NCBI RefSeq assembly: GCF_012932215.1
Contig: NZ_CP048788.1
Coordinates: 992,001-1,056,000 of the forward strand
Direction: 5' to 3'
DNA length: 64,000 nt
DNA from: Roseobacter ponti
GTDB lineage: Bacteria; Pseudomonadota; Alphaproteobacteria; Rhodobacterales; Rhodobacteraceae
Shown here: positions 30,816 to 33,621 of the stretch, one piece after another
Numbering within the stretch: the first letter of the stretch is position 1
Layout of the letters: every line of letters starts with the position of its first letter
The notes under the pieces: model-generated
What the model was told of the DNA's origin: nothing
The model's database searches: none
The model's input: the letters and a program-made list of their open reading frames with translations, nothing else
Made by a program: the position numbers and the translations under genes

Positions 30816-31106
30816 TCAGACTTTGAAGGCATCTGCCCAGTCGGGATGTTTGCGCCGCTGTGCGTTCACAAAAGGACAAAGCGGTACGATTTTAAACCCT
30901 TCAGAGCGTGCGTCCGCCACAAGCCGGGTCACAAGAGCCAGTCCCGCACCGGTACCGCGCAGCGCATCCGGGACACCGGTGTGATCGGCAATCACGGCCT
31001 CGGGCGACAGAACCGAATAGGTCAGATCCGCCTCATGCCCGTTCAGGACGAGGACATATCGCCCCTTGCTGCCGTTCTGCTCGCGCGTGATTGCGAACTC
31101 AGACAA
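30816..31106 (-). CDS. Small GNAT-fold N-acetyltransferase (COG2388 type)
   Basis: About 96 residues if begun at TTG 31106, which overlaps the end of scoB by a few bases. The short GNAT module shows '[20 protein letters not shown]' then the acetyl-CoA loop '[20 protein letters not shown]' and 'IVPLCPFV', matching the YjdJ-like family. The longer frame to ATG 31166 adds a Pro-rich stretch overlapping scoB and is less likely. The substrate is unknown. It converges with the lytic transglycosylase. Confidence 0.8.
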
Positions 31107-31725
31107 TGGTGGCTTCGGTGGCGGCGCGCAGCTCGTCTTCTGTGACGCCATCGGCGCATACCACAATCTTCAGGCCGCCGTCGACCACATCCAGCACACC
31201 CAGATTGGTGATGATACGGTCCACCACGCCGGTGCCTGTAAGCGGCAGGGTACATTCGCGCAGCACCTTGCTGTCGCCGTGTTTGTTGGTGTGATCCATG
31301 ACGACAACGACCCGGCCGACACCGGCAACAAGGTCCATTGCACCACCCATTCCCTTCACCAGCTTGCCGGGAATCATCCAGTTCGCCAGATCGCCGTTTT
31401 CGGCCACTTCCATAGCGCCCAGGATCGCCATCGCGATTTTGCCGCCCCGGATCATGCCAAAGCTGGTGGCGCTGTCGAAATAGGAGGTCTGCGGCAGCTC
31501 GGTGATCGTCTGCTTGCCGGCATTGATAAGATCAGGGTCTTCGGTGCCTTCAACGGGGAAGGGGCCCATGCCCAGCATCCCGTTCTCCGATTGCAGCGTA
31601 ACTTCGATACCGTCAGGGATATAGTTACTCACCAGCGTCGGAATGCCGATGCCGAGATTTACATACCAGCCGTCTTCAAGCTCTCGGGCGGCGCGGGCCG
31701 CCATCTGATTACGATCCCAGGGCAT
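31099..31725 (-). CDS. scoB: 3-oxoacid CoA-transferase subunit B
   Basis: 208 residues. Family I CoA-transferase beta subunit with '[20 protein letters not shown]' and the catalytic Glu motif '[13 protein letters not shown]'; '[15 protein letters not shown]' and '[20 protein letters not shown]' follow. With subunit A it moves CoA from succinyl-CoA to acetoacetate or a related 3-oxoacid, in ketone-body or PHB breakdown. Unusually, it is separated from scoA by a LOV-kinase gene, with 7 bases between that gene and its ATG. Confidence 0.95.
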
Positions 31726-31732
31726 GAGTTTC

Positions 31733-32791
31733 CTATTCTGACAGGGACGCGCCGGCAGGCACATCTATTGTGATAAAACTGCCCGCGGCGCCACGGCCGA
31801 GATGCAATGTGCCTTCGAGCCCTTCGATGAGGCCGTTTATGATGCGTCCGCCAACGGTCTTGTCGGAAGGCCACTGCATATTGCGGGGAATGCCTGTGCC
31901 GTCATCCGAAACGATCAGGCGCAGCCCCCCCGCGCTCAGCTGCGACATGCGGATTTCAACAAGGCCGTTGTCGAGACGGTCAAAAGCATGCTGGAAGGCG
32001 TTGGTCAGCAGTTCGGACGCAACGAGCCCCACGCGCGTCGCCACCTCAATCGGAACTTCGGCGGGTTCAATATGGATGCTGACACGGACGCCTGAGCGCC
32101 CTTCAATATGACAGATCGCACAGGCCAGACGGGACATGAAGCTGCCCATCGGAATGGTGCCGCGGGTGGACTGGGTGTCCGAGAGTTTCATCTCTTCGTA
32201 GAGAAGCTGCAGCGTTTCGATCCGGCGGCTCAGGGCGGCAAAATCTTCAGGCACGGAGGTCGCCGCGGACTGCTGTCTGATCATCGAGATGATCATCGAC
32301 AGATCTGCGTGGACACGGTTCTGCACTTCCATCAGCTGTTCGTTAACAGTATCGGGACCAGCCGTGCGCTCGCCTTTTCTGAGCACTTTCTGAATGCCCA
32401 TGAAATACTGAACACGGCCTTTGCTGTCGATGATGGGCGACACCACCAGGCGGTTCATAAAAGGCTCGCCGCTGGCGCGGTAGTTCAGAATATCGACCGC
32501 GACTGTCTCATCGGCCTGGATATGTTTGCGCAGCGCATCGACCGAGGCTTTTTCGGTATCCTCGCCCTGCAGAAACCGGCAGTTGCGCCCGATAATGGCG
32601 CTGCGCGGATAGCCTGTGGTCCGGGTAAAGGCCTGATTGACGTAAACGATGGGGTTGTCTTCAAGATGCGGGTTGGTGAGCACCATCGACACTTCGGCAC
32701 GCGCAAACCCGTCAAAGGCCCGGTCATCGAAAAAGAGCTCTTCTTCGGTGACGAGGTCGCTGTCGGCTGAGGGGTGAAATGTATCTGCCAT
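31733..32791 (-). CDS. LOV-domain (blue-light) histidine-kinase-like protein
   Basis: 352 residues. The LOV domain (about 25-136) has the flavin signature 'GRNCRFLQG' with photo-adduct Cys71, Asn103 and Asn113 positions and Gln134 in 'FMGIQ'. A HisKA_2-type dimerisation segment (about 145-205) and a HATPase domain follow, with N-box '[11 protein letters not shown]' (260-270) and G1 'SDDGTGIP' (295-302). In '[14 protein letters not shown]' the usual phospho-accepting His of 'HRVKN' is Asn158; a His occurs three residues later (H161). It is transcribed between scoA and scoB with gaps of 14 and 7 bases. Confidence 0.92.
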
Positions 32792-32805
32792 CTGGTGATC
32801 CGGCC

Positions 32806-33501
32806 TCAGGCGGCCCGTGTTGTGCGCTGTTCGATGCGCTTTTCATGTGTTCCCTGAATCAGCCGGTGCACATAGATGCCCGGCAGGTGAATGCTGTCCG
32901 CGTCAAGACTGCCGGTCGGCACAATCTCTTCGACCTCAACCACACATACTTTCCCGCACATCGCGGCAGGCGGGTTGAAATTGCGCGCTGTCTTGCGGAA
33001 GACGAGGTTGCCCGTCGGGTCGGCTTTCCAGGCTTTGACGATGCTGAGATCGGCAAAGATACCGCGTTCAAGGATATAGGTCTCGCCGTCGAAGTCTTTG
33101 TGTTCTTTGCCTTCTGCAATCACAGTGCCGACGCCGGTTTTCGTGTAAAAGCCGGGGATGCCGCAGCCGGCCGCACGCATGCGTTCGGCGAGTGTGCCCT
33201 GGGGATTAAACTCAAGTTCAAGCTCGCCGGAGAGATACTGGCGCATGAATTCCGCGTTCTCACCCACATAGGAACTGATCATCTTTTTTACCTGGCGCGT
33301 CTGCAGCAGGATGCCGATGCCGAAATCATCCACGCCGGCATTGTTGGACGCAAAGGTAAGGTCTCTGGTGCCGGCATCGCGGATTGCAGCGAGCAGCAGT
33401 TCAGGTATGCCGCAGAGGCCGAACCCGCCGGCGGCAATTGTCATGCCGTCGTGCAGAACGCCATCAAGCGCCTCAGCGGCTGATCCGTAGACTTTCTTCA
33501 T
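32806..33501 (-). CDS. scoA: 3-oxoacid CoA-transferase subunit A
   Basis: 231 residues. Family I CoA-transferase alpha subunit: 'DGMTIAAGGFGLCGIPELLL', 'FASNNAGVDDFGIGILL' and 'GIPGFYTKTGVGTVIAEGKE'. Partner of ScoB. ATG 33501 is used; the upstream open frame is not conserved. First gene of a three-gene unit, scoA - LOV kinase - scoB. Confidence 0.95.
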   Translation of the reverse strand: MKKVYGSAAEALDGVLHDGMTIAAGGFGLCGIPELLLAAIRDAGTRDLTFASNNAGVDDFGIGILLQTRQVKKMISSYVGENAEFMRQYLSGELELEFNPQGTLAERMRAAGCGIPGFYTKTGVGTVIAEGKEHKDFDGETYILERGIFADLSIVKAWKADPTGNLVFRKTARNFNPPAAMCGKVCVVEVEEIVPTGSLDADSIHLPGIYVHRLIQGTHEKRIEQRTTRAA

Positions 33502-33621
33502 TGTGCATCCCCAAAAACCGGTGGCTTGCCGGACTTTGCATCGCGTTGCCCGGGCTGTCAATCACGGCTGACAGCTTGCTGGTGTTCCGTCGCATACCGT
33601 ATCGCAGGCCGGCTCCGGGCG

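Follow-up and report, generated by a model that had tools for sequence, protein, structure and literature searches.

In Roseobacter ponti, a gene for a LOV-domain protein lies between scoA and scoB, the genes for the two subunits of a 3-oxoacid CoA-transferase, on contig NZ_CP048788.1 within a stretch of 64,000 nucleotides (nt) that we refer to as the window (positions 992,001 to 1,056,000; coordinates below count from its first letter). We propose, with a probability of roughly 0.84, that this gene is the orthologue of ldaP of Dinoroseobacter shibae, the product of which is a dark antirepressor of the photosynthesis repressor PpsR, that its place within sco is inherited, and that it uses the sco promoter. 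Sequence and position lend strong support to the identity as LdaP; PpsR antirepression by the window protein would follow by analogy with D. shibae.

The locus and its middle protein

An earlier note on this DNA had placed three open reading frames (ORFs) here, all on the minus strand, and all three are present as described, with the claimed spacing of 14 nt between scoA and the LOV gene (32792-32805) and 7 nt between the LOV gene and scoB (31726-31732). Both sco products score above the curated cut-offs of their TIGR models and thus represent a two-subunit ScoAB. The main features are as follows.

32806..33501, minus strand: scoA, 3-oxoacid CoA-transferase subunit A, 231 amino acids (aa) (TIGR02429 pcaI_scoA, E 1.1e-69)
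31733..32791, minus strand: LOV gene, probable ldaP orthologue, 352 aa, with a LOV domain and a predicted kinase-dead, EL346-like DHp and ATPase module (Pfam, phmmer, clade membership)
31099..31725, minus strand: scoB, 3-oxoacid CoA-transferase subunit B, 208 aa (TIGR02428 pcaJ_scoB, E 2.1e-97)
32390..32686, minus strand: LOV (PAS_9) domain, residues 36-134, with the motif GRNCRFLQ (Pfam, alignment)
32579..32581, minus strand: codon of Cys71 within GRNCRFLQ, the photo-adduct cysteine by homology (conserved motif)
32291..32329, minus strand: degenerate H-box, with Asn158 (32318-32320) for the acceptor His and a new Asp163 (32303-32305) (alignment)
31799..32062, minus strand: HATPase_c-like domain, residues 244-331, N-box and DDGxG retained (Pfam, alignment; start taken from the HATPase_c_2 match, end from the HATPase_c match)

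Pfam thus recognizes a LOV-type PAS_9 domain and an HATPase_c domain in the middle protein, and its best relative of solved structure, judged by sequence, is the blue-light histidine kinase EL346 (PDB 4r3a, phmmer E 4.6e-86). The ATP-binding N and G1 boxes are retained, the latter as VSDDGTGIP. However, the column of EL346 His142 is occupied by Asn158, so that the acceptor histidine of HWE/HisKA_2 kinases is missing, and HisKA_2 stays under its Pfam cut-off (20.7 versus 22.3 bits). The label "kinase-like" in the earlier note is therefore apt as a statement of descent but does not extend to the phospho-acceptor.

This loss is shared. Among 56 aligned proteins, chosen from the loci described below, 18 retain HRxKNH and the other 38 lack the His; 37 of these 38 have Asp, as in Asp163, in place of the second H-box His. 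In a tree of the LOV proteins from which the H-box columns had been excluded, the 38 His-less rows form one clade (support 95/90, 97% of 200 bootstrap trees), as would be expected had the histidine been lost once.

Correspondence with LdaP of D. shibae

One member of the His-less clade comes from the genome of D. shibae, as identified by an exact match to a published primer, a 338-aa product, Arg148, and GRNCRFLQ at residues 58-65. The gene is Dshi_1135 (ldaP), and it likewise lies between scoA and scoB. LdaP was described in 2024 in this one species. As reported there (PMC10890935), the protein binds flavin mononucleotide and photocycles, carries Arg for the acceptor His and showed no autophosphorylation in two assays, and binds the repressor PpsR, lifting repression of photosynthesis genes in the dark. 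Dshi_1135 by itself complemented a colorless transposon mutant of the gene (PMC10890935), so that a polar effect on scoB is an unlikely cause of the phenotype; the main text of that paper has no mention of Dshi_1134 or Dshi_1136. An earlier paper had listed Dshi_1135 among three LOV genes of D. shibae (PMC4335406).

The window genome has the genes on which such a protein would act. The reaction-center L/M family PF00124 and ppsR are found on a second contig of 100,942 bp, PpsR being recognized by TIGR02040 (E 2.6e-121), and the 8-kb ppsR region aligns with the Roseobacter litoralis plasmid pRLO149_94 at 86% coverage and 77.6% identity. As in R. litoralis and D. shibae, two TGT-N12-ACA boxes, the pattern expected for PpsR, stand 143 nt apart in the gap upstream of a bchF-like gene.

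Association with phototrophy and PpsR

We drew 295 genomes evenly from the family, representing 294 genera, and searched them for the LOV protein (E <= 1e-60) and for ScoA (E <= 1e-80). PF00124 occurs in 122 and PpsR in 123 of the 295. All 13 draw genomes with a His-less protein have PF00124, compared with 6 of the 16 that have only a His-bearing form, as judged from the loci examined (Fisher p 4e-4), and with 109 of the remaining 282 (p 7e-6). Genomes with the His-bearing form do not differ from the remaining draw genomes in this respect (p 1.0). PpsR was matched in 12 of the 13, and in 31 of 33 carriers of a second set that overlaps the draw, the misses being G016 and G306.

Within the genus, 18 of 19 genomes carry the LOV gene and 17 have PF00124; all 17 phototrophs are carriers, and one genome (G006) has neither. 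Among further genus carriers PF00124 is present in 15/16, and among other carriers reached via their loci in 32/34, giving 59 of 62 carriers combined after removal of one overlap that we noticed (L023 = G011). The genome G100 holds both forms, a His-less one between scoA and scoB and a His-bearing one elsewhere (L152, L153).

An old arrangement at a recurrent insertion site

The earlier note had suggested searching Rhodobacterales for a LOV gene between scoA and scoB and had named occurrence in a single strain as evidence against its significance. The arrangement recurs. In 49 loci of relatives obtained by protein search, with flanks called by tblastn with the window genes, the LOV gene is flanked by both scoA and scoB in 41, including L015 despite a LOV-scoB gap of 437 nt. 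One or both sco genes are lacking in the other eight (L018, L019, L024, L025, L030, L031, L033, and L048); the L024 sequence starts just before the LOV gene, so that only the absence of scoB is visible there. In the family draw, 29 genomes encode the LOV protein, at 32 places in total; of the 30 loci retrieved from these, 20 show the gene enclosed by scoA and scoB, the gaps reaching about 480 nt. An order-level search found the protein in 27 of 195 genomes, all of the same family; five loci new to us, kept out of all other counts, are without exception His-less and flanked by scoA and scoB. A plasmid collection contained no close LdaP relative, only two matches at 33% identity.

A LOV gene in the scoA-scoB gap is thus a minority state, yet an old and repeated one. 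Flanking by both sco genes is seen in 12 of 13 His-less draw loci but also in 8 of 17 His-bearing ones, and since the latter stand outside the LdaP clade, the arrangement would be older than the LdaP function. We infer that a His-bearing kinase entered sco first and that its function changed afterwards.

Does the position mean anything? The scoA-scoB junction is a recurrent insertion site. Of 40 scoA loci without a LOV insert, taken from high-scoring scoA matches and thus not a random sample (G325 and G327 hold a His-bearing LOV gene elsewhere), the two genes are separated by 2-42 nt in 31, by 250-263 nt that include a small ORF in five, and by an insert of 1.9-3.3 kb in four, namely a GSCFA-like gene pair in three and a glycosyl hydrolase family 9 gene in one. 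Such inserts and wider gaps, and the presence of His-bearing relatives at the same place, would be expected if the LOV gene were a neutral passenger in a junction that tolerates insertions. Retention of the order across genera and preservation of the region upstream of a decayed scoA in L018 speak against complete neutrality and suggest that at least the shared promoter matters. We consider it an even bet that the position as such is without meaning. This concerns the position only and is compatible with the gene acting as ldaP.

Some of these inserts merit a separate record. GSCFA-like genes with a second small gene occupy the gap in L098, L119, L122, and L143 (PF08885 was tested for L098, the others were assigned by eye). 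The small ORFs, of about 70-86 aa in a gap of about 250 nt, are found in L099, L102, L113, L125, and L132 and appear by eye to be of two types; two were tested and neither had a Pfam match. The large insert in G074 (L094, 4694-8004) is a 1060-aa ORF, the first 557 aa of which were tested and match glycosyl hydrolase family 9.

A likely operon and a PpsR-type box at its promoter

The features upstream and downstream of the three genes that bear on their transcription are the following.

33533..33561, minus strand: predicted promoter TTGACA-17-CAAAGT in the topA-scoA gap (relaxed scan, 9 of 12 bases)
33556..33573, strand not assigned: PpsR-type palindrome TGTCA-N8-TGACA, overlapping the predicted -35 (TTGACA) of the operon promoter (motif match)
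30816..31106, minus strand: small GNAT gene (Acetyltransf_CG) downstream of scoB, start uncertain (PF14542, E 4.2e-22)

Upstream of scoA, topA follows after a spacer of 160 nt. The promoter predicted in this spacer has a score reached by 2% of shuffled sequences and an identical placement at -60 in L001, L005, and L016; a stricter scan did not report it. Across the three genes we found one promoter-like site, within scoB, and three terminator-like sites, compared with 1.1 and 3.1 in shuffles, the scans covering promoters of the consensus type. Separate promoters or terminators between scoA, the LOV gene, and scoB, which according to the earlier note would speak against a joint unit, were therefore rejected, and scoA, the LOV gene, and scoB likely form one operon, in line with the coupled expression that the note suggested.

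At the other end, a match to the GNAT gene follows scoB in part of the relatives. Were it to start at the in-frame TTG at 31104-31106, the GNAT gene of the window would share bases with the scoB stop codon, which suggests translational coupling and a fourth operon gene.

The box over the predicted -35 suggests a possible PpsR site. With 10 matches in the window, the loose pattern TGT-N12-ACA stays close to the 7.9 expected by chance. The stricter TGTMA-N8-TKACA matches the window only at 33556-33573 (0.05 expected) and the genome at 13 sites, six on the second contig and seven on the chromosome, compared with two for the reversed control; this motif was picked after viewing the window and the photosynthesis-cluster sites, so that its rarity is partly post hoc. 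With a position weight matrix (PWM) built without it, the scoA-promoter box scores 18.8, within the span of 15.3-26.9 of the 15 photosynthesis-cluster sites used. Other boxes that we examined adjoin hemF, fnrL/hemN, a ferredoxin-NADP reductase-like gene, crtI (two sites), and bchC; still others adjoin ppk, a pyruvate phosphate dikinase-like gene, and an ORF without a family match. The boxes just before ppk (L178, near 2009) and about 200 nt before the dikinase-like gene (L181, near 1973) may point to unexpected targets.

Over 18 genomes, the mean number of motifs is 17.5 for the 8 with PF00124 and 6.9 for the 10 without (Mann-Whitney p 0.001). Contrary to this trend, G006 and G016, which lack the cluster, have 13 and 12 motifs, and the reversed pattern yields between 0 and 12 matches. 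Upstream PWM scores of at least 10 occur in 6 of 59 LdaP loci, with the sister genome excluded and three loci repeating a genome, versus none of 40 LOV-free loci (p 0.08), the regions searched being longer at loci without an intact scoA. Among the loci examined, a box before scoA is common only to the window and its sister L001/G001.

Conserved control of the operon by PpsR was consequently rejected, the loose pattern being near expectation and the site being missing from D. shibae and most relatives; the box is a lineage-specific lead only. For this species we advance a tentative and on balance unlikely proposal, namely that PpsR binds the scoA-ldaP-scoB promoter and controls both its own antirepressor and the CoA-transferase. 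The result would be positive feedback in the dark and a photosynthesis regulon that extends to the handling of acetoacetate/succinyl-CoA. Because 5-aminolevulinate, and hence bacteriochlorophyll, is made from succinyl-CoA, an old gene order would thereby gain a late metabolic use. If the box is used, the light circuit would take in scoAB both here and in the sister species.

The LOV gene outlives its sco neighbors

The earlier note had read the arrangement as coupling of light sensing with ketone-body or polyhydroxybutyrate (PHB) breakdown. The likely operon and the recurrence of the arrangement across the family would fit the co-expression that this presupposes; as the main job of the LOV protein, coupling fares worse, since the gene persists where sco does not. 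Intact sco flanks, present in 37 of 47 rows, undergo six state changes on the LOV tree, five of them forced by starred branches, and in 9 of the 38 clade rows the LOV gene is kept with its sco neighbors missing or reduced to remnants. In R. cerasinus (L018), the scoA upstream region and the start and end of scoA remain, followed by the LOV gene; scoA remnants are also found in G013 and G004, and scoB is gone at the locus in G016. Within the genus, eight of nine sco-affected genomes have a full-length scoA elsewhere, and G007 has none. The ratio of nonsynonymous to synonymous substitution rates (dN/dS) of the LOV gene is 0.047 between window and sister and 0.012-0.096 in five pairs without intact sco on both sides; a sixth pair yielded no value, and dS is high in several pairs. 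Retention under purifying selection after sco loss makes sco coupling unlikely as the main role.

We therefore regard it as improbable that the LOV protein acts on ScoAB, or that the operon co-expresses both for the sake of light control over ketone-body or PHB metabolism. The short gaps and the predicted promoter before scoA would suit this idea, as would the span of the arrangement over His-bearing and His-less forms (20 of 30 draw loci) and the PpsR-type box on the operon promoter in this species. Against it stand, besides the loci just described, the occurrence of scoA in 264 of the 295 draw genomes as opposed to 29 for the LOV protein, and the phenotype in D. shibae, which is one of pigmentation, restored by the LOV gene on its own (PMC10890935). 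In that species, the targets of the equally placed orthologue are PpsR and the photosynthesis genes (PMC10890935).

Still less credible is the view that the protein is a working EL346/HWE-type histidine kinase, switched by blue light, that feeds a response regulator such as PhyR of the general stress response: the resemblance to EL346, the retained N-box and DDGxG, and the signaling of a Rubellimicrobium HisKA2 LOV kinase to PhyR (PMC12148442) would allow it, but none of the 38 clade rows retains the acceptor His and H-x-x-K-N-H, which all 18 others have, and D. shibae LdaP failed to autophosphorylate (PMC10890935).

Weighing the assignment as LdaP

Several observations weigh against an ldaP orthologue that acts on PpsR from within sco. 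The identity between the window protein and D. shibae LdaP is a moderate 55%. As many as 109 of the 122 draw genomes with PF00124 are without a His-less protein, so that the link between LdaP and phototrophy runs one way only. On a topA tree of 70 rows, from which L160/G090 was left out for want of topA, the co-occurrence is clustered and reduces to five independent pairs on well-supported branches; four agree on average and none disagree, with a median p of 0.125. The single-contig genus member G016 has kept the gene while reaction center and PpsR are absent, the metagenome-assembled genomes G348 and G364 carry it without PF00124, and G306 (77% complete) has no PpsR match. A terminator-like hairpin at 31783-31796, on the same strand near the end of the LOV gene, is at chance level, and the promoter box, which D. 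shibae and most relatives lack, is not a conserved site. At its locus (L134), G016 retains ldaP and scoA and lacks scoB, and offers a natural test of LdaP without PpsR.

On balance we favor the assignment as LdaP, and picture the mechanism as follows. The LOV domain would bind flavin and form a cysteine adduct under blue light, and the former histidine kinase module, devoid of a phospho-acceptor, would serve as a platform for protein binding. The LdaP orthologue would bind PpsR in the dark, so that the photosynthesis gene cluster on the second contig is derepressed; under blue light it would release PpsR, which then represses. An older His-bearing LOV kinase would have entered the sco operon before the function changed, and ldaP would owe its expression from the sco promoter to the position of that ancestor. 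PpsR may in addition repress the operon promoter in R. ponti and its sister, and thus feed back on its own antirepressor.

If correct, LdaP would be a blue-light switch of many, not most, phototrophs of the family (13 of 122 in the draw, 17 of 17 in the genus) and could be recognized by one sequence change and one gene position. A kinase would have been turned once into a nonenzymatic antirepressor, in step with phototrophy, with relatives that still bear the His. A chromosomal regulator could, moreover, serve a photosynthesis cluster on a plasmid-sized contig, and a promoter can be named where the target repressor of a sensor may act back on that sensor.

Comparison with known systems

In the literature that we searched (open-licence PMC articles, by titles and the starts of abstracts), no paper among those listed appears to describe the scoA-LOV-scoB arrangement. 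The protein itself has several known counterparts. With LdaP of D. shibae it shares a LOV domain joined to an EL346-like, kinase-dead module, loss of the acceptor His, membership of the same clade, placement between scoA and scoB, the presence of PpsR and of photosynthesis genes in the genome, and the box spacing before bchF. The two differ at the His position, which is Asn in the window protein and Arg in D. shibae; in the location of the photosynthesis genes and ppsR, which are on a second contig in the window genome but on the main contig in D. shibae; and in the operon promoter, which carries a PpsR-type box only in the former.

EL346 of Erythrobacter litoralis, a monomeric LOV histidine kinase, has the same domain order, length, GRNCRFLQ, N-box, and DDGxG, but it possesses the acceptor His142 and is an active kinase (PMC10890935, PMC10359499), whereas the window protein lacks the His. 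A subgroup of EL346-like LOV histidine kinases that misses the phospho-acceptor His was noted by Dikiy et al. in 2023 (PMC10359499); the window protein shares this trait, and the text on that subgroup gives no function, phototrophy link, or gene context. Antirepressors of PpsR/CrtJ are otherwise represented by AppA, with a BLUF domain, and the cobalamin-binding AerR/PpaA (PMC10890935). The window protein would act likewise. Their photoreceptor domains differ from LOV, and the likeness is one of role.

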